From NCBI RefSeq assembly GCF_003402975.1, contig NZ_QURB01000002.1, positions 62,001 to 126,000 on the forward strand: 64,000 nt of DNA, read 5' to 3'. A program made the position numbers and the translations under genes. The stretch is from Brumimicrobium aurantiacum. GTDB lineage: Bacteria > Bacteroidota > Bacteroidia > Flavobacteriales_D > Crocinitomicaceae. Positions 19,684-32,681 of the stretch are shown piece after piece. The notes under the pieces were generated by a model that saw nothing but the letters and a program-made list of their open reading frames with translations, searched no databases and had not been told where the DNA came from. Position 1 is the first letter of the stretch. Each line of letters starts with the position of its first letter.

Positions 19684-20399
19684 GCTGTGGAAGCTTTAGC
19701 TTTGCTAGGGAGAGTATTTAGGGAGAGGTTGCTAACGAGCCTTGCTTTTTAAGGACAAGCATTTATATTCTTTAATATAGAATAGCTATCATATTTCAAA
19801 TTCTAATGCTTAGATTTCTCCAGCATTTAATGCTGTTTGAAATGACATCGATTTGGGGTGAATCTTCGTCGCGCAGCGCGCGACGATATGATCCTAATAA
19901 AAATGTCATTTCGATGGAACATAGTGACTGAGAAATCTTCTGTTTCACGACTGAATCTTTATTATTTACTTTTTCCCATCACCGCAAAAAGTAAAACCAA
20001 AAGGGCTAGCGCTTAGAAAACCTTTTACCCACTATTGTCTTCACTTTCTAAAATTTATAAACTCAAACTCTTCTCGTCGTTTTCAAACACTATAAATTTT
20101 ATAGAAAGAATGAAGCCAAGTGGGGCCCAAACGTGGTTTTCTTAGGCACATCCGAAAGACTAAACATCCGAATTCATTTTTTAGTTAAATTATGGAAGAA
20201 GTTGAGTTCTTAATTACTCCAAACTCTTGCTCAAAACTGTTGTTGCATATTTTTTGACCTTTTCTCTGTTACTTCGTTAGCTGAAGGGGGATCAAGGGGG
20301 AGGATAATAGTGAAACGAGATTAGTTCTAACGTAAATTCATAATGCTATCAAACAAAAATGTTATCTTTATCTATCGTAAAATTTAAAGGACGTACCAT
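19684..20399. repeat. Gene-free, repeat-rich left border of the defence island
   Basis: 716 bases without a gene. In order it holds: the left copy of a ~93-bp direct repeat (19721-19813); a large imperfect palindrome (19813-19938) whose arms carry AGATTTCTC and GAGAAATCT with a perfect central hairpin CGTCGCGC-AGC-GCGCGACG (19867-19885); a second folded stretch (about 20010-20150) with pairing arms CTTTCTAAAATTTATA and TATAAATTTTATAGAAAG; and a GC-rich GGGGGATCAAGGGGGAGGAT box (about 20286-20305). The first palindrome resembles dispersed repeats common in Bacteroidetes genomes. A weak TATCTTTA lies upstream of the restriction gene, but no clear promoter was found. Confidence 0.7.
19721..19813 (+). 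repeat. Left copy of ~93-bp direct repeat bracketing the island
   Basis: From GGGAGAGGTT to TTCTAATGCTTAG. The right copy is 30682-30773 in the same orientation; about nine differences were counted by eye, including one single-base gap. Confidence 0.8.
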
Positions 20400-23300
20400 A
20401 TGAATCTAGAGCTGTTGAAACCTAAAAAAGCTTTAAACAAAGCATATCTGAAAATCAAACCTATTCGTAATCAAATTGAATCTTTTAAAGAAAATTTAAT
20501 TGAGTTACTGGATAATTCTAATGATCACGAATCAGAAGAGTTTCATAAGAATTTAGTTTCAGACTTCTTAAAAAGTACATATTATGCTCCTGACTATTTT
20601 ATCAATACAAAAGGACGTAATGACTTAGTAATTCATAACGGTAGTAAAGCAAAATCTCCAGTAGGAGTTATTTTAGAAACAAAAAAGCCTACCAATTCGG
20701 GGGAAATGATGGCTGCTGACAAACCCAATACGAAAGCGTTACAAGAATTGATCTTGTATTATCTTCGTGAACGAATTACGGGCAAAAATCTAGAAGTTAA
20801 AAAGCTGATTATTACCAATATTTATGAGTGGTATATCTTCGATGCAAGTGTTTTTGAAAGGTACTTCGCTCAGAACAAAAAACTCGTAAAACAATTTGAA
20901 GATTTTGAAAATGGTAGCCTTTCAGGTACATCAACTGATTTTTTCTATAAAGAAATTGCTGCTCCAGTAATTGAAAATATAGAGGAGGAAATAGAATGTA
21001 CACACTTTGATTTTAGAAAATATGAAAAACCGCTCAGAAATACCGATAAAAAAGATGATGTTCAACTTGTAGCATTGTTTAAACTTTTGTCTCCAGAACA
21101 TCTACTTAAAAAGCCTTTTTCCAATGACAGTAACAGTTTAGATAAAAGTTTTTACGCTGAATTATTACATATTATTGGGTTAAGTGAGCAAAAACAAGGT
21201 GGAAAGAAAATTATAGAACGAAATCCTCAGAAAGATAGAAATTCTGGGTCTATACTAGAAGATGCGATTATTCAAATCGATAGTATGGATAAACTTAGTC
21301 GATTGGATAGACCTTCACAGTTTGGTAAAACACAAGAAGAACGCTTGTTTAATGTTGGACTGGAATTGTCAATTACGTGGATCAATAGAATTTTGTTTCT
21401 TAAACTGTTGGAAGCACAATTAATTTCCTATCACGAAGGAGATAAAAGTTATGCCTTTTTAAATTTTCAACGTATTAGTAGTTACGACGATCTCAATAGC
21501 TTGTTTTTCCAAGTTTTAGCACGGAAATTTGAAGACAGAAACGCTGATGTTAGTAAAGCTTTTGAAAAAGTTCCTTACTTAAATAGTTCTTTATTTGAAC
21601 CAACAGAAATTGAACACAACGCTTTATTCATTAGTAATCTTCGCGATGATAAAACACTTCCAATTCACGAGAAAACTGTTTTAAAAGATGCCAAAGGTAA
21701 AAGAAGAACAGGTGAACTTTCTACTTTAGAATATTTGTTTGATTTCCTAAATGCTTACGATTTTAGCGGTGAAGGCTCTGAAAATATTCAAGAAGACAAT
21801 AAAACATTGATTAACGCTTCTGTTTTAGGCTTAATCTTTGAAAAAATAAATGGTTACAAAGATGGTTCTTTCTTTACGCCTGGTTTTATCACCATGTACA
21901 TGTGCCGTGAAACTATCCGAAAAGCTGTAGTACAAAAATTCAACGAAGCTACAAATGTTTTAACAAAGGATAATCCAACTCCCCCTTTGGAGGGGGGCAG
22001 GGGGGAGGATTCCAGCGGAGCAAACAAATACTCTTCCATCACCGACATTTACAACGCCATAGGTTCACGTGGCGAATTTTCACACGAAGAAGCTAACGCA
22101 CTTATTAATGATGTTAAAATATGCGATCCTGCGGTAGGTTCTGGACACTTTTTAGTTTCTGCGCTCAACGAAATGATTGCCGTAAAACACGATTTAGGTG
22201 TTTTGCATGATCGTAAAGGAAAATTGCTCCGCGATTATGATGTACATGTTGAAAATGATGAATTGATTATCACAGATTACAACGGCGAATTATTTGAGTA
22301 CCATCCTAAAAATAGAGAAAGTCAGCGGGTGCAGGAAACCTTATTCCATGAAAAGCAAAGCATCATTGAAAACTGTCTGTTTGGCGTTGACATCAATGCC
22401 AACTCGGTTAAAATTTGTCGTTTGCGACTCTGGATTGAACTCCTCAAAAATGCTTACTATAAAAATGAAACGGAACTTGAAACCTTACCCAATATTGACA
22501 TTAATATCAAATGTGGGAATTCATTGATTAGTCGTTTTGATTTGGATGCTGATTTAAGCAAAGCCCTGCGCAGTAGCAAATGGAATATGGACAGTTATCG
22601 CATAGCTGTGCAAACTTACCGCAACGCCGAAAACAAAGAGCAGAAACACGAAATGGATCGCTTAATTGCCGACATTAAAGGTGATTTTAAAACCGAAATC
22701 TCTCGAAATAGTAAAGAACAACGTTTATATGATAAACTTAGTGCAGAACTGTACGAAAAGCACATGTCTCCAAAACTTTTTGAGGACACCTTAACGAAAA
22801 CCCAAAAATCTAAACTGAAAAAAGACAGAGAAACGTTAGAAAAGAAAGTGACAAAGCTGAAAAAGCAATTGGACGAAATCAAAGAAAATAAGATTTACGA
22901 AAATGCTTTTGAATGGCGATTTGAATTTCCTGAAGTGTTGGATGATGACGGTGGATTTGTTGGATTTGATGTGGTGATTGGGAATCCGCCTTATTTTATA
23001 ATGACAAAGAACAATACTGATCGAAAAGAACTCGAACATTATTTATCCAATTATAGAACAATAAATAATTCTTCTTCAAAAAACATATTTAATCTATTTA
23101 TAGAACTAGGAATATTAATTGGTGATGAGAATGTTTATCACTCTATGATAGTACCCGAGGGATTGTTTGAAACTAGAAGCTATTCCGATACCCTTAAATA
23201 TTTCGAGCAGAATGGAGGTGTTACCAACATTATCCGAATTGAAGGTATGGTATTCGATGAGGCTAATACAGGAAATGTGATATTCATCTTTTCAAAAGGA

Positions 23301-24092
23301 AGTTTTAATGAGAAAGTGGTTGAAAGTCTTTTTAACGAGGATAAAAAACTAGTATTAATAGAGAAAATCACTAATCCCGTAATAAGCAAAATGGAGAGTA
23401 ATAAATTTATACCTCTTAAAGAAATTTGTATGCTTTTCAAAGGAATGGTCGTTAGTGATCGAAAAAATCACCTCTTTGAAAAAGCTGATGAGAAAAATAC
23501 AGATAAATTCTTACTAGGAAATTGTATCTCTCAATGGTCAATTAATAAATCTTTTTACACAGACTATGATTCTTTGAAAATTGTAGGAGGAACTAAGTTA
23601 AAAAGTAAACATGATGTTTCTCCAAGGATTCTAATTAGAAGAACCGGTGACCATTTGTGCTCTGCATTTTTAGAAGAACCTGCTTTAACAGAATCTACCT
23701 TATATTCTTGCTGGTCTTTAAAAGAGGAAATTGACACAAAATACATTTTCGGTTTATTACAATCAAGGCTATTAGATTATTTCCTGAAAAAGAAATTCAT
23801 TACGAATAAACAGGCTTTTCCACAAGTTTTAATGTCAGACTTACAGCTTTTACCTATTTCCATTGACAACTTGGATTTACAACCTGCTTTAATCAATCTC
23901 GTCGACCAAATCCTCACCGCCAAGCAAGAAGATCCATCAGCCGACACCACCGCTTTGGAGCGCGAGATAGACGTTTTGGTTTATCGCTTGTATGGTTTGA
24001 CGTATGAAGAAGTGAAGGTAGTTGATGAGGATTTTTGGATGGGGGAGAGTGAGTATGAAAGAGTGGATACTGAGATTAGGAACCTAAATTAA
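20400..24092 (+). CDS. Single-chain type IIG-like restriction-modification enzyme (Eco57I-type methylase)
   Basis: 1230 residues. The N-terminus holds a probable PD-(D/E)xK nuclease: Asp75 in NDLVIHN and ETK at 93-95 in GVILETKKP. An adenine-N6 methyltransferase follows, with motif I DPAVGSGHF near 575 and the catalytic NPPY in GNPPYF near 860. The remaining ~350 residues look like a target-recognition domain, and a coiled stretch (KSKLKKDRETLEKKVTKLKKQ) precedes NPPY. Cutting and methylating in one chain is the type IIG plan, related to type ISP and BREX PglX-like enzymes. The peptide TPPLEGGRGE near 527-536 is coded by a GC-rich repeat inserted in frame. The NACHT gene begins within a few bases of its stop, so the two are probably co-transcribed. 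Confidence 0.9.
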   Translation: MNLELLKPKKALNKAYLKIKPIRNQIESFKENLIELLDNSNDHESEEFHKNLVSDFLKSTYYAPDYFINTKGRNDLVIHNGSKAKSPVGVILETKKPTNSGEMMAADKPNTKALQELILYYLRERITGKNLEVKKLIITNIYEWYIFDASVFERYFAQNKKLVKQFEDFENGSLSGTSTDFFYKEIAAPVIENIEEEIECTHFDFRKYEKPLRNTDKKDDVQLVALFKLLSPEHLLKKPFSNDSNSLDKSFYAELLHIIGLSEQKQGGKKIIERNPQKDRNSGSILEDAIIQIDSMDKLSRLDRPSQFGKTQEERLFNVGLELSITWINRILFLKLLEAQLISYHEGDKSYAFLNFQRISSYDDLNSLFFQVLARKFEDRNADVSKAFEKVPYLNSSLFEPTEIEHNALFISNLRDDKTLPIHEKTVLKDAKGKRRTGELSTLEYLFDFLNAYDFSGEGSENIQEDNKTLINASVLGLIFEKINGYKDGSFFTPGFITMYMCRETIRKAVVQKFNEATNVLTKDNPTPPLEGGRGEDSSGANKYSSITDIYNAIGSRGEFSHEEANALINDVKICDPAVGSGHFLVSALNEMIAVKHDLGVLHDRKGKLLRDYDVHVENDELIITDYNGELFEYHPKNRESQRVQETLFHEKQSIIENCLFGVDINANSVKICRLRLWIELLKNAYYKNETELETLPNIDINIKCGNSLISRFDLDADLSKALRSSKWNMDSYRIAVQTYRNAENKEQKHEMDRLIADIKGDFKTEISRNSKEQRLYDKLSAELYEKHMSPKLFEDTLTKTQKSKLKKDRETLEKKVTKLKKQLDEIKENKIYENAFEWRFEFPEVLDDDGGFVGFDVVIGNPPYFIMTKNNTDRKELEHYLSNYRTINNSSSKNIFNLFIELGILIGDENVYHSMIVPEGLFETRSYSDTLKYFEQNGGVTNIIRIEGMVFDEANTGNVIFIFSKGSFNEKVVESLFNEDKKLVLIEKITNPVISKMESNKFIPLKEICMLFKGMVVSDRKNHLFEKADEKNTDKFLLGNCISQWSINKSFYTDYDSLKIVGGTKLKSKHDVSPRILIRRTGDHLCSAFLEEPALTESTLYSCWSLKEEIDTKYIFGLLQSRLLDYFLKKKFITNKQAFPQVLMSDLQLLPISIDNLDLQPALINLVDQILTAKQEDPSADTTALEREIDVLVYRLYGLTYEEVKVVDEDFWMGESEYERVDTEIRNLN
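21979..22011 (+). repeat. GC-rich hairpin repeat inserted in the restriction gene
   Basis: The sequence CCCCCTTTGGAGGGGG followed by a GCAGGGGGGAGGAT tail lies in frame within the coding sequence. The same design, with ATCA in place of GCAG, occurs between genes at 30787-30818 and, in part, at 20286-20305. It codes for a Pro/Gly-rich loop just before the methyltransferase motif I. Confidence 0.85.
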
Positions 24093-24099
24093 ATTGAGG

Positions 24100-27000
24100 A
24101 TGTTAGAAGCGATAGGTGTCGGAATAGCTATTAGCATTATTACAAGTAGTGCAGAGTCTCTAGCCAAAAAGATTAATATTTTTCATTGCAGCAAAAAAGT
24201 AATAAATGAAATTGAAGCAGCATATGACGATGTTATAAAGGATTGGACTAAAAATCATGGAGCAAGAGACAAAGCTTTCATTGTGGATAAAGAAATCCTG
24301 CGTGATTTTTTTAATGGTGAATTAAAAAGTGAAGACTTTTCAAACTTACCAAAAGAAAAAAAAGAGTTTATAGAACTCTTTAAATATGCTTTGGCAAAAA
24401 GGGAAAATGCGCATAGGTATTTAACCTTTAATGTTTATGAGAACAGATTTAATGAGTTGATAAAAATTCAAAGACAACATAGCTCAAGTCAAAATTCTTT
24501 AATAACTGGTCAGGAGCAAATTTTAGGGAATACAGTTGAGATTTTAGAAAAATTCAATGGAAAGGTAAAAATTAAATATGATAAAGGAAGTGCTCATGAG
24601 AATCAAGATTTTTTTATAGGAAAATTAACTGATCATGAAACGCTAGTAGCTAGTTTTATTAAAAGACATATTAAAACTATAAGTAGTAATAAAGAAAATA
24701 CTTTTGATTTCTTTGAAGACTCAAATTCATTAGAAAATTTCAAAGATGTTTTTAATGCAAAGAATAACGAATCAAAGATTATTTTAATAGGAAATCCTGG
24801 CTCAGGAAAATCAGGGGAATTGAGAAGATTGGCCCTTGATTTATGGAACGATAAGGACAATGATTTAATTCCGTTCTACAGGGATTTACGTAACTTTACA
24901 ATAAATGATGATATTTCAAGCTTCTTTGATTTAGACAAAGTTGATGAATATCTCAATGTTGTTTTTATTCTTGATGGATTAGATGAAGTTAAAGATGAAC
25001 AAGATTTCCTTAGTAAATTCAATAATTACTTTATTAATCGTCGCAATAAATCACATCGATATGTTTTGAGTTGTAGATCAAATATATTCGAAAACTATAA
25101 AAAAGAGCTAGATAAATTTGAAACTTATGAGTTACAAAAGTTATCAACTCTTCAAGCTCAAAAGATGCTTTACATTTTAACGAATGAGGAGTTTGACATT
25201 AATCAACTCTATGAGTTCTCACTGAATTCAAGTTTCATCGATGATCCATTTAAATTGCAGCTTTTAGCTAATTATTATAAGGATTTCAGAAAGTTAGAAA
25301 CGAATCAAACAGTTTTATGGAATAAGTATTTAGAAACAATCTTAGAACATGACAAGACAGTTAAGTTTAGTAAGAAAAAGCTCATTTACTATGATATAAA
25401 AGATGACAGTCAGCGTGTTGCATTGTTTCTTGAAATGACAAAATCTTTAGAAATTAGTGTAGAGAATATTTATAAATTGTTAGAGCGAAATCAGGAACGA
25501 ACAGAATCATTTATTCATTGTGCATTTGTTCTAAATAATCAAAATGATTGTTTGTTTGAGCACAAGCAGTTACAGGAGTATTTATCAGCATCATTAATAA
25601 GTTCCTTAGATTTAGATAGAATAAAAGAGCTTTTTACTATCGAAAGTCTTCCAGCAATTAAACCTAGTTTAGAGAATTCATTGACAATGTTGCTCGATTT
25701 ATTGGGTGATCATATAAATAAGCAAAAGGAATTACTTCAATGGATTTCTGAAATAAAACCAGACATATTGTTCAAAGCTGATTTGGACAGGGTTAAAAGT
25801 TTTCAGATTCCAGTTTTCCAAGAATACTTCAAAAAACAATGCGTCGAAACTACCCTTTGGGTAGGAAATACAACTAGTGTTTCAGTGAAGGAAATTGCTA
25901 GATTTGCTGATTGTCATAATAACCAAGAGTTTTTATTGGCTTATTTTTTAGATGAAAACGAGCACTTTAGAGTACGAATTTCGGCTCTTAATTTATTAGA
26001 GCATTTTAAACCAAAGAATACTGATGAACTGAAAGAACGATTTATTGGGATTCTTAAAAATCCTGATACAAAATTAAATCTGAAAGGGTACTTGATTAAC
26101 TTAATTCGAAAATGGAATTTTGTTAAAGAACACCCTAACATAATTCATGAAATCATTGAAATATTTAAGGAAGAAGATCACTCAGAGATTAGTACAGGTA
26201 TTCTTAGCATAATTAAAACAGATGAACATAATATAGATGACTATTTTGATTTTATAAAAAAAGAATTTGATTTTATTTTTGGAAAGCAAAAACGTAGAAA
26301 TGATGATCGAGTTATAAGAGGAAATCGTTTGAAAGTTGAGGATTTGATGTTGAAATTAAAAGAGAATTCAAACTTTTTAGAGCTTCTTACGGAATATCTC
26401 CACAACAATAAATCTAGAAACCGCTATCCAGATAATGAAGAGAAAATTATCGAAAGATTAAAAGAAATGAAAAAAGATGATTCAGAAATTATTTTAAAGC
26501 TTGCCAAATCAGTTGTAACTCAAAATGATTTTAATTTTCACTTCAGGGATGATTTTATTGTTCGAGTTGTACAAATGTTTGATGAATGTTTAAGATTGTT
26601 CAAATGGCTATTTGAGGAACAAGACTTTTCAAAGTCAAAATGGTTAATGGCTAGAATAGTAAATAAGGAATGTATTAACTATTACATTAACAATTGGCTT
26701 CAAGTTTTGGGTGAAAACAATCCTCACTTGGAAGGGTTTAGGAATATTGTTTCTAGTTATCATAAACAAGAAGATTGGCATTTCAAAATTGAAAAGTCTT
26801 ACGAAAAAAGTAATGTGAGAATTAAAAATCCTTTAAAATCTATAACTCCAATGGAAGAGTTAAATAGAGAATATAAAAAGAAAGTCGAACAAGACCTTAA
26901 ACTATTGTTTAATCGAGACGGACTCATTAAAGAAGTTGATGCTTTATTTAAGCAGTTAGATAAAGATAAGGTCACCCAAAAAGAGTTGTATCATGAATTC

Positions 27001-28329
27001 TTAATTAAGAACAATAGAGATGATGATTTTTTTATACTTTTTGGATATCATGGTGTTGGTTATGATTTAATAAATTCATTATTGATTCAAGAAGATAACA
27101 AAGAAGTTTCGATAGAAGAATGCGAGCATTATATTGATGAACCTAAGTTTTTTGTGTTCTTTATTGAAAGACAAGTTAAAGATGCTATGATTCATGATAA
27201 TATTGTTATAAATGCTTCAATAATAAAACAAAATATGGAGCTCTTTGTCATAGACTTGATTACGAAAATAAACGTTACTGATATCTTGGAGTACAGCAGT
27301 AGTTCTAAATTCTCTATTAAAAATCAAGATAAAGATAACTATCAATCTTTTCAAATTATTCAAGCTATTCATGAACTTATTTTAATTGATTCGCTTAGTA
27401 TTAGTGTTCCTGAAGACTTCTTGTTGAAAACGCTCGAGTACTTTGATATTAGAAGTTTTGATAATAATGAAAATAAATTTGAAAAGTATCTGAATAAAAT
27501 ACAAGATAAAGAAAATCTGGATAATAAAATATTAGAAAACTTAAGTCGACCGATATTCTCTTCTGTTTATATAAAGCATGCATATTATGCATTGGAAAAC
27601 GATCTGAAAGAGTCTTTTGAATTTATAAAAGAATATTTATTAAGAAGTGATGATATAAGGAGTGAATTACCTTTGCTCGATAAATATATTGAAAAAAACG
27701 GTCCTGAAATTCTTTTAGAAATGATGACAGACATCTATTCCATTGCCTGTTGGAAAGCAATTGAAATTTCAATGAAAAAGGAGGTTCATGAGGATGAATG
27801 TATATTAAAAGCAAAAAAATATCTTGACTCAAATAGGATTAAATATAAAACGAATGCTGCAAATGTTCTATTAAGAACCAATCAGCCAGAAATTATCAAT
27901 TATATTGCAAAGGATTTAGAAAATCGAATTCAATTTCTTCACCCTGATCAAAGAATTAGTATAAAGAATTATACCCAATTGCCAGATGAAGGTTTTAATT
28001 TTATCGAGCGATCATTTGATGCTATTTTCAAAATAAATGAAGACGATTCAGATGATAAGTATACAAGGTCAGCTTTAAATGATTTTTTCCGAAATTACAT
28101 TATAAATATTGCCCTAAAAGATGGGAACTATGAAAAGGTGCAAAAAGTATTAAAAAAAATCAAAGCAAGTTTAAGAACTAATGAAAAGGAAACATCGGAT
28201 GAATTAGATGAAAAATACTTTTACATTAATTCATTTATAGATGAATGTGAAAAGGCTTATATAAATAAAATGTCTAAACCTTTAAGTTTTAAAAAGGCTT
28301 TTAAACTTGTAAACGATCTTAAAATTTAA
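24100..28329 (+). CDS. NACHT-domain STAND NTPase, bacterial NLR-like
   Basis: 1409 residues from the ATG at 24100; a TTG two codons earlier (24094) would add two residues. The N-terminal ~130 residues are helical (VINEIEAAYDDVIKDWTKNHG) and resemble the helical leaders of bacterial NACHT proteins. Walker A is GNPGSGKS (231-238) and Walker B is ILDGLDEV (290-297), the NACHT form with paired acidic residues; LSCRSNIF follows as the sensor-like arginine block. From about 560 to the end the chain is a long helical repeat region without enzyme motifs, as expected for a ligand-sensing superhelix. Bacterial NACHT proteins are known antiphage sensors. It lies just behind the restriction gene and 10 bases ahead of an 88-residue ORF. 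The effector activity is not evident from the sequence. Confidence 0.87.
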   Translation: MLEAIGVGIAISIITSSAESLAKKINIFHCSKKVINEIEAAYDDVIKDWTKNHGARDKAFIVDKEILRDFFNGELKSEDFSNLPKEKKEFIELFKYALAKRENAHRYLTFNVYENRFNELIKIQRQHSSSQNSLITGQEQILGNTVEILEKFNGKVKIKYDKGSAHENQDFFIGKLTDHETLVASFIKRHIKTISSNKENTFDFFEDSNSLENFKDVFNAKNNESKIILIGNPGSGKSGELRRLALDLWNDKDNDLIPFYRDLRNFTINDDISSFFDLDKVDEYLNVVFILDGLDEVKDEQDFLSKFNNYFINRRNKSHRYVLSCRSNIFENYKKELDKFETYELQKLSTLQAQKMLYILTNEEFDINQLYEFSLNSSFIDDPFKLQLLANYYKDFRKLETNQTVLWNKYLETILEHDKTVKFSKKKLIYYDIKDDSQRVALFLEMTKSLEISVENIYKLLERNQERTESFIHCAFVLNNQNDCLFEHKQLQEYLSASLISSLDLDRIKELFTIESLPAIKPSLENSLTMLLDLLGDHINKQKELLQWISEIKPDILFKADLDRVKSFQIPVFQEYFKKQCVETTLWVGNTTSVSVKEIARFADCHNNQEFLLAYFLDENEHFRVRISALNLLEHFKPKNTDELKERFIGILKNPDTKLNLKGYLINLIRKWNFVKEHPNIIHEIIEIFKEEDHSEISTGILSIIKTDEHNIDDYFDFIKKEFDFIFGKQKRRNDDRVIRGNRLKVEDLMLKLKENSNFLELLTEYLHNNKSRNRYPDNEEKIIERLKEMKKDDSEIILKLAKSVVTQNDFNFHFRDDFIVRVVQMFDECLRLFKWLFEEQDFSKSKWLMARIVNKECINYYINNWLQVLGENNPHLEGFRNIVSSYHKQEDWHFKIEKSYEKSNVRIKNPLKSITPMEELNREYKKKVEQDLKLLFNRDGLIKEVDALFKQLDKDKVTQKELYHEFLIKNNRDDDFFILFGYHGVGYDLINSLLIQEDNKEVSIEECEHYIDEPKFFVFFIERQVKDAMIHDNIVINASIIKQNMELFVIDLITKINVTDILEYSSSSKFSIKNQDKDNYQSFQIIQAIHELILIDSLSISVPEDFLLKTLEYFDIRSFDNNENKFEKYLNKIQDKENLDNKILENLSRPIFSSVYIKHAYYALENDLKESFEFIKEYLLRSDDIRSELPLLDKYIEKNGPEILLEMMTDIYSIACWKAIEISMKKEVHEDECILKAKKYLDSNRIKYKTNAANVLLRTNQPEIINYIAKDLENRIQFLHPDQRISIKNYTQLPDEGFNFIERSFDAIFKINEDDSDDKYTRSALNDFFRNYIINIALKDGNYEKVQKVLKKIKASLRTNEKETSDELDEKYFYINSFIDECEKAYINKMSKPLSFKKAFKLVNDLKI

Positions 28330-28339
28330 AATAGAAATC

Positions 28340-28606
28340 ATGATATCAAACGACAGAATTGAAAATTACTTTTTCCTTAGAAAAAAGATGTTCAGAATAA
28401 ACAAAACTGTTTCAGGATTAAATAAAACGGTACTTCAAAAATGGGATAAAGCAACATTTTTTGATGATTGTCCAAAAGAAAAAATTAAAGAAGTTATTGT
28501 TTATGAAAACCCAAAAGAACTTCCTGAAGAAATGCTTTTACCTTACATTAGTTTTTTAGAGTCAAAAGTATATAAATCCAATGATTTAATGTTTACAAAG
28601 GATTAA
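28340..28606 (+). CDS. 88-residue protein downstream of the NACHT gene, unknown
   Basis: Starts 10 bases after the NACHT stop and looks translated: ATG start, no competing frame, and codon use like its neighbour. It is basic at the N-terminus (FFLRKKMFRINKTVSGLNKTVLQKW) and acidic later (DDCPKEKIKEV, ENPKELPEEM). No signal peptide, membrane helix or known domain is visible. A small regulator or accessory of the NACHT protein is inferred only from position. A 38-bp direct repeat begins 11 bases behind its stop. Confidence 0.65.
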   Translation: MISNDRIENYFFLRKKMFRINKTVSGLNKTVLQKWDKATFFDDCPKEKIKEVIVYENPKELPEEMLLPYISFLESKVYKSNDLMFTKD

Positions 28607-28616
28607 TGACATGTTT

Positions 28617-28654
28617 TAAAAGCCAATAAAATTTTCAACTAAGCATTAGAGAAG
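28617..28654 (+). repeat. Left 38-bp direct repeat bounding the TcmP cassette
   Basis: Begins TAAAAGCCAATAAAATTTTC and ends near AAGCATTAGAGAAG. The second copy at 30599-30636 differs at two positions, both transitions. Confidence 0.85.
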
Positions 28655-28719
28655 TGGATGAGGGTAGATTGAAAAATGCCGTATTACTTTTAAAATCAAA
28701 GACAAATCAGATCGGATTT

Positions 28720-28751
28720 ATTGTTTTGATTAAAAAATAATCTTATATTTG
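28720..28751 (+). promoter_or_regulatory. Promoter of the TcmP module
   Basis: ATTG at 28720-28723, a 20-base spacer, and TATATTTG at 28744-28751. The ATG at 28771 is 19 bases further on, so the module has its own promoter separate from the NACHT operon. Confidence 0.65.
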
Positions 28752-28770
28752 ATTAGAAAAACACCTAAAT

Positions 28771-29871
28771 ATGGCGGCAATAGATTTACACGACAAACCT
28801 TTTGATGAGGTTACACAAATAAAATTAACCTTATTTGAAAGTTATGCCCAAGCTTGGATTCCAACTTTTTTAATGACACCCTTTGCAAAAGAATTACATA
28901 TTTTCGATTTCTTTGCAGGAACTGGATATGATCTAGACGGAAATAGTGGAAGTCCGATTAAAATCCTTGATAAGGTTATTGAACAAAAAGAATTAATTCT
29001 TCAAAAAGATAAAAAAGTTGTATTGCATTTTAATGAATTTAATTTCAAAAAATTTAAACTTTTAAAAGAAGCTTGTGAAAATAAAGTGAATGACAATGGC
29101 CTTTTAGGTTTTGTTGACCTTAAATTATATAATGAAGATTTTGCAGTTTTGTTTCCTGAATTACTTAAAACAATTAAAAAACATCCAGCCTTGGTATTTC
29201 TTGATCAAAATGGAGTGAAATATATTTCTGACGATTATTTCTCTGAATTGGAGAAAATGCATCAAACTGATTTTATTTATTTTTTGTCGAGCTCTTATAT
29301 TAAAAGGTTTATAAGTAGACCTGAATTTATGAAGCATTTGAATTTAGATTACGAGGAAATTAAAAGAAGCAAATATTCAAACATTCATAGAATTATTTGT
29401 GAACAACTAAAGAAGAATTTACCTTTGGATTCAAAATTAAAATTATATCCGTTTTCCTTAAAAAAAGGAGTTAATATACATGGATTAATTTTTGGATCTA
29501 AACATCCTAGCGCAGTTGATAAGTTTTTAAATATTGCTTGGAAACTAAATGATAAAAATGGAGATGCTAATTTTGATATTGATGATGAAGCAAATGCAAA
29601 TCAACTTGATTTATTTACGGGTGAACGACGTTTAACGAAAAAGCAAGCTTTTCAGGAGGAGGTGAAGGCAAAAGTTCTAAATGGTGAAATAGAAAGCAAC
29701 AAACAATTGCTAGAGTTTACTTATGAAAAAGGTCATATTGGAAAACATGCCCAAGAATGTTTAAAGAAATTGAAAAAAGAGAGGAAAATAGAATATAATG
29801 GACGTTCACCGTTGGTTACCTACAACAACGTTTTTAAGGATAAAAAAATAATTCATTATGAAAAAATCTAA
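28771..29871 (+). CDS. tcmP: Three-Cys-motif partner protein TcmP
   Basis: 366 residues. The segment HIFDFFAGTGYD with NSGSPIKIL behind it is the TcmP signature and resembles the SAM-binding motif I of Rossmann methyltransferases. NQLDLFTG and a C-terminal winged-helix-like stretch (GHIGKHAQECLKKLKKERKI) follow. The family is defined by its pairing with Gp37/Gp68-type three-Cys proteins, and exactly such a gene overlaps its last 14 bases. The biochemical role of the pair is not established. The setting next to restriction and NACHT genes points to defence, which is inference. Confidence 0.88.
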   Translation: MAAIDLHDKPFDEVTQIKLTLFESYAQAWIPTFLMTPFAKELHIFDFFAGTGYDLDGNSGSPIKILDKVIEQKELILQKDKKVVLHFNEFNFKKFKLLKEACENKVNDNGLLGFVDLKLYNEDFAVLFPELLKTIKKHPALVFLDQNGVKYISDDYFSELEKMHQTDFIYFLSSSYIKRFISRPEFMKHLNLDYEEIKRSKYSNIHRIICEQLKKNLPLDSKLKLYPFSLKKGVNIHGLIFGSKHPSAVDKFLNIAWKLNDKNGDANFDIDDEANANQLDLFTGERRLTKKQAFQEEVKAKVLNGEIESNKQLLEFTYEKGHIGKHAQECLKKLKKERKIEYNGRSPLVTYNNVFKDKKIIHYEKI

Positions 29872-30601
29872 AATCGAATGGACAGAAGAAACATGGAATC
29901 CTACGACTGGTTGTACAAAGGTATCGGCAGGTTGTAAACATTGTTATGCTGAAACCATGGCTAAACGACTAAAAGCGATGGGTGCTCCTGGATATGACAA
30001 TGGATTTAAATTTTCCATGATGCCAGAGCGGTTGGAACAACCACTGAAGAAAAAGAAGCCTACGAAGTATTTTGTAAATTCAATGAGTGATTTATTTCAC
30101 GAAGAAATGGATCCTTTGTTTTTAGATAAAATCATGGGGGTAATGGATTTAACTCCTCAACATGTTTATCAGATATTAACAAAAAGAGAAACGGCTATGT
30201 TTGATTACTTTCAACATAGGAAAATCCCCGATAATATATGGCTAGGAGTAACATGTGAAGATAAAAAACATGGTGTTCCACGAATTGATAAATTGAGAAA
30301 TATTCCCGCCAAGATAAAGTTTTTATCTGTAGAACCGCTACTAGAGGATATTGGGGAAATCGATTTAACTGGAATAGATTGGGTAATTGTTGGTGGGGAA
30401 AGTGGTCCGAAAGCACGTCCAATGGATAAAGAATGGGCTTTGAATGTTAAACGTCAATGTGAAGAACAAAATGTAGCATTTTTCTTCAAGCAATGGGGAA
30501 CATGGGGTGCAGATGGTGTAAAAAGAAGTAAAAAATCCAATGGAAGAATTTTAGAAGGGCAAGAATGGAATGAATATCCTGAAAGCATATTAACGGAATA
30601 A
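29858..30601 (+). CDS. Gp37/Gp68-like (DUF5131) three-Cys-motif protein
   Basis: 247 residues. The N-terminus reads IEWTEETWNPTTGC followed by CKHCYAE, giving the cysteine cluster C..C..C that defines the family and recalls a radical-SAM iron-sulfur site. VGGESGPKARPMD and FFKQWGTWG are the other family blocks. It overlaps the tcmP gene, so the pair is translationally coupled. The stop codon lies inside the right 38-bp direct repeat. Family members occur in phages and on mobile elements; the chemistry is unknown. Confidence 0.9.
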   Translation: MKKSKIEWTEETWNPTTGCTKVSAGCKHCYAETMAKRLKAMGAPGYDNGFKFSMMPERLEQPLKKKKPTKYFVNSMSDLFHEEMDPLFLDKIMGVMDLTPQHVYQILTKRETAMFDYFQHRKIPDNIWLGVTCEDKKHGVPRIDKLRNIPAKIKFLSVEPLLEDIGEIDLTGIDWVIVGGESGPKARPMDKEWALNVKRQCEEQNVAFFFKQWGTWGADGVKRSKKSNGRILEGQEWNEYPESILTE

Positions 30602-30636
30602 AAGCCAATAAAATTTTCAACCAAGCATTAGAAAAG
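30599..30636 (+). repeat. Right 38-bp direct repeat bounding the TcmP cassette
   Basis: The copy of 28617-28654 begins at the stop codon of the DUF5131 gene. The cassette between repeat starts is 1982 bases. Confidence 0.85.
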
Positions 30637-31001
30637 CAGAGAATAAAATGACTTTGTCCTCCCTCTGTGTCTCCCTCCAAAGGGAGAGGTTGTTAACGAG
30701 CCTTACTTTTAAAGACAAGTATTTTTGTTCATTAATATAGAATAGCTATCGTATTTCAAATTCTAATGCTTAGTTTCGAAGCATTTCCCCCTTTGGAGGG
30801 GGATCAAGGGGGAGGATAAAGTTGTATTTAGTTTGATGTTTGATTTCTCCTACTCACATTAAAAACACCTATTAAATCCGCTTTTATCTGCGTTCGAAGA
30901 TCTGTGTTACCGAAAGTTTTCGGTACCGCGTACCATTACAGCGCAAAATAAACCAACAAAACTAAGAGCGAGTTTGAAAATGAGTGTGAGAAAGAAGTTC
31001 T
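30602..31001. repeat. Gene-free right border of the defence island
   Basis: 400 bases without a gene. After the 38-bp repeat comes a CTCCCTCCAAAGGGAG hairpin, the right copy of the ~93-bp direct repeat (30682-30773), a GC-rich CCCCCTTTGGAGGGGG/ATCAAGGGGGAGGAT unit (30787-30818), and a perfect ACCGAAAG/TTTTCGGT type hairpin near 30909-30924. TTCAACCAAGCATTAGAA at 30617-30634 and TTCTAATGCTTAGTTTCGAA at 30761-30780 form imperfect inverted ends of a ~165-bp block. Confidence 0.7.
30682..30773 (+). repeat. Right copy of ~93-bp direct repeat bracketing the island
   Basis: Matches 19721-19813 in the same orientation with about nine differences, from GGGAGAGGTT to TTCTAATGCTTAG. Confidence 0.8.
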
Positions 31002-32681
31002 TTAAAAACCAGCCTCCGCTTCAAATCTCAACCTTTCCTTTGTTTCTGGGTGAGTAATTTCTAGCGTAGTGGCGTGGAGGTGCAAACGGTTGTCTACCTG
31101 ACCATATAAATCGTCGCCTTTGATGGGCGTGTCTAATCCTTTACTGTGGGCACAATGCACACGCAATTGGTGTGTTCGACCAGTAATTGGAATTAATTTT
31201 ATTCTTGTCGTTCCTTTTCTTCTTTCCAAAACTTCCCATTCTGTTCTGGCAGATTTCCCATTTTCAAAATCTACCTTCTGTCTTGGTCTGTCAAGCACAT
31301 CCAAAGCCAATGGTAAATCAATAACACCAGAAGTTTCTTTGAGGTATCCAACGAGTAGGGCTGTATATGTTTTGGCAACGGTGCGCTTAATAAATTGCTG
31401 TTGTAAGTGATGATTTGTCGTTAAATCCTTGGCAATTATCATGAGTCCAGAGGTTGACATGTCCAAACGGTGAACAATTAACGGACCTTCAGCATCGGGA
31501 TATTCCTTTTTGATGCGACTAAAAACAGAATCGTAGATTTCCTTTCCAGGAACAGAGAGTAAATCGTGTGGTTTGTTGATGACAAGAATTTTATCGTCTT
31601 CAAAAACAGTTTCAATCACTTTATCTATACCAGGATTTTTCAATAAAGGATTTTCGTCAACAGGAATTCCGTCGAGCATGTGACTCAAAATAGGTTTACA
31701 TTTTCCTAAACAAGCAGGGTAAAAATGCTGATGTTTACGTACTTCAGTTCCCGGAGGAGCTCCCCACCAAAACTCAGCAAGCGCAACTGGTTTTAAGTCA
31801 TTTTTGAATGCATATTGTAATAATTTCGGTGCTGCACATTCTCCAGCTCCAGCAGGTGGCCTTTTGAAAGCTGTACCGCTAAAAATATCTAACAATGCTT
31901 CTTGATCACCATCAATATTTAAGAATTTATAGGCTTTAAATAAACGTTGTTGAAGTTTTGCTGAATCTGTTTTTCTTTTGAGCAATAATTGATCAAACTC
32001 ATCTTGAAATGGTGCGATTTCATTTTTTAATTGCTGAAGTTTTTCCTGACTTGCAGTTTTAAACTTAGCGAGTTTATTTTTATAGGCGATACTTTCGTTG
32101 GCCAATTCAGTTTTTAATTCTTCAAACAGAGTAGGAGATAAGCTAGATTTTCCCGCTGTTCGTTTTTTCTTACGAGCTGCTTTGGCTTCTCTCATTTCAG
32201 AACGCAAACTCTCTTCTTGCGTTTTTAATTGCTCTTGAAGTTTTTGAAACTTTAGTTTTAAATCGAGAAACTCTTGTTCTTTTTCTAGTTCAGCAATTCT
32301 TTCATTGATGGCATTTATTTCTAATTCTCCTTCTAAAAAGAAACTTCCTTCTGTGAGCATGTCAAAAACTGGAGGAACAAAGTTTTGATGGTGATTTGAA
32401 TTAGCCAATTTCCCAGAAAATGCAGCCAAATAGCCGATTTCATTTTGATCATTTTGCACCACTAAAACCCCAAACATTTTTCCGATTTCTAATCCTTCAT
32501 CCTTCGGATTTAAACCGAAATTATGATCCCACTCTTGTGAAGAAATATAATCTTGCAACTCTTTTGCAGCTATTTCAGCCAGTGGGTGAGGTGTATAATA
32601 AAAAGGATAAGTAAATTTTTCTGGTAAAGAATATTCAGAAATATCAGAGAGGAAAGAAATGAATTTACTTGGGTTTTGCAT
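31002..32681 (-). CDS. RluA-family RNA pseudouridine synthase with long N-terminal extension
   Basis: 559 residues. The C-terminal third is the catalytic domain with the RluA motif HRLDMSTSGL containing the essential Asp, followed by KTYTALLVG and TGRTHQLRVH. Residues about 110-250 are a coiled coil (many Glu/Lys/Leu; AKAARKKKRTAGKSS in the middle), and the front part contains a globular domain seen in longer RluA relatives. It isomerises uridine to pseudouridine in rRNA or tRNA; the site cannot be told from sequence. It is transcribed toward the island border. Confidence 0.9.
   Translation of the reverse strand: MQNPSKFISFLSDISEYSLPEKFTYPFYYTPHPLAEIAAKELQDYISSQEWDHNFGLNPKDEGLEIGKMFGVLVVQNDQNEIGYLAAFSGKLANSNHHQNFVPPVFDMLTEGSFFLEGELEINAINERIAELEKEQEFLDLKLKFQKLQEQLKTQEESLRSEMREAKAARKKKRTAGKSSLSPTLFEELKTELANESIAYKNKLAKFKTASQEKLQQLKNEIAPFQDEFDQLLLKRKTDSAKLQQRLFKAYKFLNIDGDQEALLDIFSGTAFKRPPAGAGECAAPKLLQYAFKNDLKPVALAEFWWGAPPGTEVRKHQHFYPACLGKCKPILSHMLDGIPVDENPLLKNPGIDKVIETVFEDDKILVINKPHDLLSVPGKEIYDSVFSRIKKEYPDAEGPLIVHRLDMSTSGLMIIAKDLTTNHHLQQQFIKRTVAKTYTALLVGYLKETSGVIDLPLALDVLDRPRQKVDFENGKSARTEWEVLERRKGTTRIKLIPITGRTHQLRVHCAHSKGLDTPIKGDDLYGQVDNRLHLHATTLEITHPETKERLRFEAEAGF

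Follow-up and report, generated by a model that had tools for sequence, protein, structure and literature searches.

Palindromic REP sequences lying in frame inside protein-coding genes, those of tRNA synthetases included, are described for many bacteria in the sections of PMC3733652 that treat them. The same sections report that the TIRs of some TIRYT genes have the motif GGGGWSAS, and the paper leaves open how palindromic repeats of the CGTC type, which lack a RAYT, are spread. DUF559 proteins are placed among the EDxHD homing endonucleases in the relevant part of PMC9403480. VsrA of Caulobacter, a DUF559 protein, is held responsible for an SOS response in cells that lack a methyltransferase (PMC12907096, in the portion dealing with it). 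For Legionella, PMC12308824 presents repeated segments that carry a transposase and DUF559 as recombination hotspots, and going by that part of the account they are perhaps a similar element to the one analysed here.

The window analysed here comprises 64,000 nucleotides of Brumimicrobium aurantiacum, whose genome assembly totals 3,423,338 bases over 22 contigs. The original prediction was that a repeat otherwise found between genes forms an in-frame segment of a restriction-modification (RM) protein. This is confirmed: the palindromic repeat, called R here, is real and the gene remains open across it (Table 1). We read the label 'type IIG-like' for this gene from its DUF7149, DUF7814, Eco57I and TaqI_C domains. 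The 16-nt palindrome CCCCCTTTGGAGGGGG has exact copies at 21981-21996 and 30787-30802, plus one with two mismatches on the minus strand at 30671-30686. These three matches compare with 0.06 expected, and three were reached by none of 100 shuffles. The predicted near identity to the intergenic unit also held, with 29 of 33 alignment columns in agreement. The protein reads ...KDNPTPPLEGGRGEDSSGANK... around the insert, with TPPLEGGRGE as residues 527-536. This peptide had been located just before methyltransferase motif I; it does lie upstream of DPAVGSGHF, which we take to be that motif, at a distance of about 40 residues and not directly adjacent to it. A looser R pattern found six copies in the whole genome and its reversed control none.

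Table 1. Coordinates in the window of the RM gene, its insert and the related intergenic units
Feature	Position	Strand	Description
Type IIG-like RM gene, host of the insert	20400..24092	+	Open frame, 1230 aa; Pfam DUF7149, DUF7814, Eco57I, TaqI_C, MmeI_Mtase
Whole insert, approximate	21951..22022	+	ATNVLTKDN-TPPLEGGRGED-SSGA; from homologous loops, borders uncertain by a few residues
25 bp ahead of R	21954..21978	+	Flank-like; last 20 bases compared with same-genome DUF559-linked R flanks
R unit, 32 bp	21979..22010	+	CTCCCCCTTTGGAGGGGGGCAGGGGGGAGGAT; palindrome, spacer and G-rich tail ending GGGGGAGGAT
Motif DPAVGSGHF	22125..22151	+	Starts at residue 576
Degenerate intergenic R	30656..30688	-	Head facing the R at 30785..30817; palindrome with two mismatches
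Intergenic R	30785..30817	+	Exact palindrome; head-to-head doublet with the degenerate R

The insert had been equated with the 33-bp repeat, and this proved too short. It exceeds the short homologues by approximately 21-26 aa, more than R alone would account for, and alignment suggests that it is made up of R and some 25 bp of flank. Homologues of the RM protein were matched in 28 of 149 relatives and 20 of 399 genomes of the order (the source genome is counted in both), and eight distinct homologous loops, the window's own excluded, were readable with the anchor used. Seven of the eight lack the segment and are short (VVQKFNETKNWN...IKICDPAVGSG and similar). The PPLEGG peptide is found in none of the eight, so the alignment proposed earlier as a test shows that it is not common to all homologues. 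Since the homologue in G011 (L010/L142) holds an unrelated, longer in-frame insert at the same loop, this position appears to be an insertion spot in general. The notion that the repeat has turned into a protein linker stands as far as an in-frame segment missing from homologues is concerned; that it is a tolerated loop or neutral linker is what we infer. An exact empty site at the DNA level was not found for the RM insert, the available homologues being too diverged. No target duplication was seen at the RM insert, nor a clear one at the LeuRS and IleRS insertions.

The flank also bears on the origin of the insert. Because the last 20 bases ahead of R match, at 15 and 14 positions, those of the two R units that border the genome's own DUF559 gene, the insert most likely derives from this DUF559-linked sort of R. 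Of 63,975 window positions, 3 reach a score of 15/20, among them the tested one, and four other R copies of the genome have just 4-5 of the 20 bases in common with the flank of the RM copy.

Copies of R make up a dispersed family. The strict pattern matched in 48 of 149 relatives' genomes, and a reversed control pattern gave no match. From 80 stretches around listed copies and six other sources we assembled 120 strict copies, 12 of which lay well inside open frames of at least 150 aa. Two were antisense and were dropped; the remaining ten are sense and in frame, in LeuRS (four), IleRS (three), HsdM (two) and the RM gene (one), the IleRS and HsdM hosts being named from sequence. LeuRS was surveyed in the best 30 of 142 matching genomes (among 150) with a query that holds R, which biases the sample towards R. 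A forward R is present in ten of these 30 loops (in one of them decayed) and a reverse R in two; three contain only a repeat of the CTTCGACTCCGCTCAGCCAAC type, and the remaining 15 neither, ten of them with a length of 16-17 residues. The reverse copies, assigned their orientation by eye, come from two genomes of one genus (g10) and occupy the same loop as the forward ones. Two of nine IleRS genes of the genus hold R, and that of the source genome may hold a decayed copy. These R loops are about 3 residues longer than the shortest loop, and replacement is therefore as likely as addition. Several genes carry an in-frame R at a loop that is free of it in relatives. The use of all three forward frames by the in-gene copies, together with both orientations, points to repeated insertion of DNA and not to a conserved peptide. 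Among close R pairs the head-to-head arrangement is the commonest in the relatives (25 of 42), and 23 of those 25 are spaced 80-106 bp. The CTTCGACTCCGCTCAGCCAAC type constitutes a second repeat family, seen in frame in the R-accepting LeuRS loop at L271, L274, L279 and L255.

The description of R as an intergenic-type unit was borne out by these data; what the original prediction missed is its tie to DUF559 nuclease genes. A 122-aa DUF559 gene of the source genome is flanked by two R copies. Including this locus, 36 named ones and 30 of relatives, 67 DUF559 loci were collected, with L039 and L121 on the same contig and a few other near-duplicates, and 63 were scored. Inverted matches between the upstream and downstream flanks exceeded all 100 shuffles at 42 of the 63 (24 of 34 named, 17 of 28 from relatives, and our own locus), and a flank score of at least 20 was obtained at 29 of 63, compared with 0.8% of 355 control anchors. 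The test failed at 21 loci, including the in-frame MetH and both LeuRS cases discussed below. By record titles, the positive loci represent about eight phylum-level groups: Bacteroidota, Cyanobacteria, Chloroflexi, Planctomycetes, Clostridia and relatives, Alphaproteobacteria, Lambdaproteobacteria and Chitinivibrionales. The palindrome differs from group to group, often with a G-rich tail towards the gene as judged by eye; L050 and L057 fit less simply. Because palindromes are self-complementary, the flank test does not by itself fix orientation. Orientation was read from the nearest R in 22 distinct loci of R-sharing lineages: upstream of DUF559 it lay on the plus strand in 15, on the minus strand in two and was absent in five; downstream it was minus in 12, plus in three and absent in seven. 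The tail of a bordering R thus points to the DUF559 gene in most cases. At L002 (~1425-1530 and 2085-2197), the R stretch before the source-genome DUF559 gene recurs directly behind it, 667 bp on.

The structure model of the DUF559 protein (mean pLDDT 89.8) matched 3hrl (E 2.9e-8), the catalytic domain of I-Bth0305I (3r3p, E 1.8e-4) and, weakly, Vsr (1vsr, E 0.024); the predicted fold is of the homing-endonuclease/Vsr-like kind. Four acidic residues, D54, E65, D67 and D78, are invariant in 26 sequences and have a putative catalytic role. DUF559 itself also resides in frame in larger proteins. Six of the relatives' 75 DUF559 matches of at least 74 bits lie in open frames of more than 300 aa. 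Pfam places the domain inside MetH, a SpoIIE-type protein, the G103 homologue of the window's RM protein, and the LeuRS of two families of the order; the sixth frame (G022, 308 aa) is outside this Pfam-confirmed set. DUF559 is also hosted by a DegT aminotransferase of Bacteroidaceae. The inverted-flank test was passed at the SpoIIE-type and DegT loci, and by eye the joints of in-frame DUF559 resemble R-type peptides. The DegT gene (L048) contains, besides DUF559, in-frame segments of the LTPNPSPEREG and QPSPEGKGALQSHPLGGD types.

On balance we consider it probable that the RM segment is a solo copy of a REP-like mobile unit, R with about 25 bp of flank, whose likely partner is DUF559 and not a RAYT transposase. 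DUF559 would cut at or near R-like sites; repair of the break would copy in R, or R with the DUF559 gene; and insertions would survive solely in intergenic DNA or in permissive loops that leave the reading frame intact. The movement of R by DUF559 is what we infer; no movement or cleavage was observed. The R-free homologues, the flank likeness, the varied frames and orientations, the flank test, the in-frame DUF559 cases, and the co-occurrence and Y1-stretch results given below favour this reading; the 21 loci that fail the flank test, the R-bearing genomes with no DUF559 match and the co-occurrence of Y1 genes with R count against it. More tentatively, and with the case for and against it nearly in balance, DUF559 homing nucleases (EDxHD/PD-(D/E)XK-type), not HUH transposases, may drive REP-like palindromic elements across many phyla, with the repeat and the whole nuclease element inserting in frame in housekeeping proteins such as LeuRS and MetH and remaining there as unspliced loops or domains.

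The best-surviving alternative, which we nonetheless regard as unlikely, makes R the target and not the product: DUF559 would home into R-like sites without spreading R, and host recombination or another factor would spread or keep the repeat. The gap between YceI and ArsR speaks for this, although it is also in keeping with the reading that we prefer. Across three species, with G001 and G002 as sisters of the source genome's, G001 has a decayed R-like unit there and G002 an intact R, both without DUF559, and the source genome has a decayed R-like unit adjoining an R-DUF559-R block with a direct duplication. From sequence comparison at this one locus, the history fits the arrival of a nuclease gene at an R-like site. 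A DUF559 match is also absent from 15 of the 48 R-bearing genomes. The resemblance of the RM copy's flank to that of DUF559-linked R argues against R as a mere target, as does co-occurrence. Over 149 genomes, R and DUF559 were found together in 33, R only in 15, DUF559 only in 30 and neither in 71 (p 7e-6); inside the genera of the family they coincided in 30 genomes compared with 22.7 by permutation (p 5e-5).

Somewhat less probable still is that R is an ordinary REP/TIR-type repeat mobilized by a Y1 tyrosine transposase (RAYT or TIRYT), with DUF559 as a bystander. By eye, several repeats that flank DUF559 have G-rich tails similar to the TIRYT motif GGGGWSAS in the form given in PMC3733652, and on the small contig G051:C191 a Y1 match lies ~1.6 kb from an R doublet. 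Y1 transposase genes were found in 88 of 149 relatives and co-occur with R (both 38, R only 10, Y1 only 50, neither 51; p 4e-4), but the association is weak inside the family (p 0.055). Further against a Y1 mover, none of 30 Y1 stretches contained even a relaxed R; four of the first ten came from genomes without strict R, the other six and all of the remaining twenty from strict-R genomes. Several Y1 genes are, by eye, flanked by other repeats, such as GTCCC...GGGAC. A RAYT as the mobilizer of R is accordingly unsupported, despite the co-occurrence. Separately, a Y1_Tnp-like (TnpA-REP type) segment was seen in frame in another type IIG-like RM protein, at L304 (G022:C18) and L305 (G076:C54).

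We think it very improbable that R acts as a nucleic-acid signal, regulatory or structural (a terminator-like hairpin or G-quadruplex), and was copied into the gene by accident. R does have G-runs and a short stem, and an R-like unit is kept between YceI and ArsR in all three species. Against this, single-stranded RNA folding of the RM-gene and intergenic units was no better than that of shuffles (z 0.24 and -0.66), an Rfam search of 20000-31500 gave no match, and R occurs in coding loops, at one of them in both orientations. Over six frames the RM-gene R contains no stop and the intergenic copy one, in a single reverse frame. The idea that the peptide has always belonged to the RM fold and resembles R at the DNA level by chance, for which the intact gene might speak, we reject as barely credible, given the eight homologous loops that lack it and a palindrome identical to that of the intergenic copy.

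The in-frame R in the RM gene adds a further case to a phenomenon already known, the in-frame REPs that PMC3733652 describes; the new part is DUF559 as the nuclease partner of a REP-like repeat. A literature search of open-licence PMC papers found no link between DUF559 and repeats. A nuclease-linked family offers a testable mobilizer for repeats that have no RAYT partner, and would trace lineage-specific loops of essential enzymes to inserted DNA. Segments of the PPLEGG/PLWRG type in proteins of this bacterial family would thereby have an explanation.

Compared with the REP/REPIN families (GTAG, CGTC) in the relevant sections of PMC3733652, R is likewise short and dispersed as singlets and inverted doublets. 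It likewise adjoins an enzyme gene, a nuclease gene where REPs have a transposase, and sits in frame in genes including those of tRNA synthetases. Unlike in those families, neither a GTAG nor a CGTC tag was read in the R unit or its immediate flank, and unlike GTAG REPs with a RAYT R is absent from all 30 Y1 stretches and has DUF559 as its neighbour gene. The Rickettsia palindromic elements (RPE), to which the original prediction compared the insert, are apt in principle, R too being palindromic DNA in frame in protein genes and absent from homologues; the comparison is too narrow, in-frame REPs being known from many bacteria according to the part of PMC3733652 cited. R is set apart from RPE by a presumably unrelated sequence, a shorter unit (RPE-1 is longer, PMC3733652) and its wide linkage to DUF559. 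DUF559 resembles the EDxHD homing endonucleases and Vsr (I-Bth0305I) in its predicted fold, and differs from them in being flanked by REP-like palindromes and lying in frame, apparently with no intron or intein, in MetH, LeuRS, RM and DegT proteins. Finally, TIRtrons, as outlined in PMC3733652, likewise have a gene framed by inverted repeats in which a G-rich motif occurs, and their TIRs also occur as dispersed dimers; the gene of a TIRtron is a Y1 transposase, whereas here it is DUF559.
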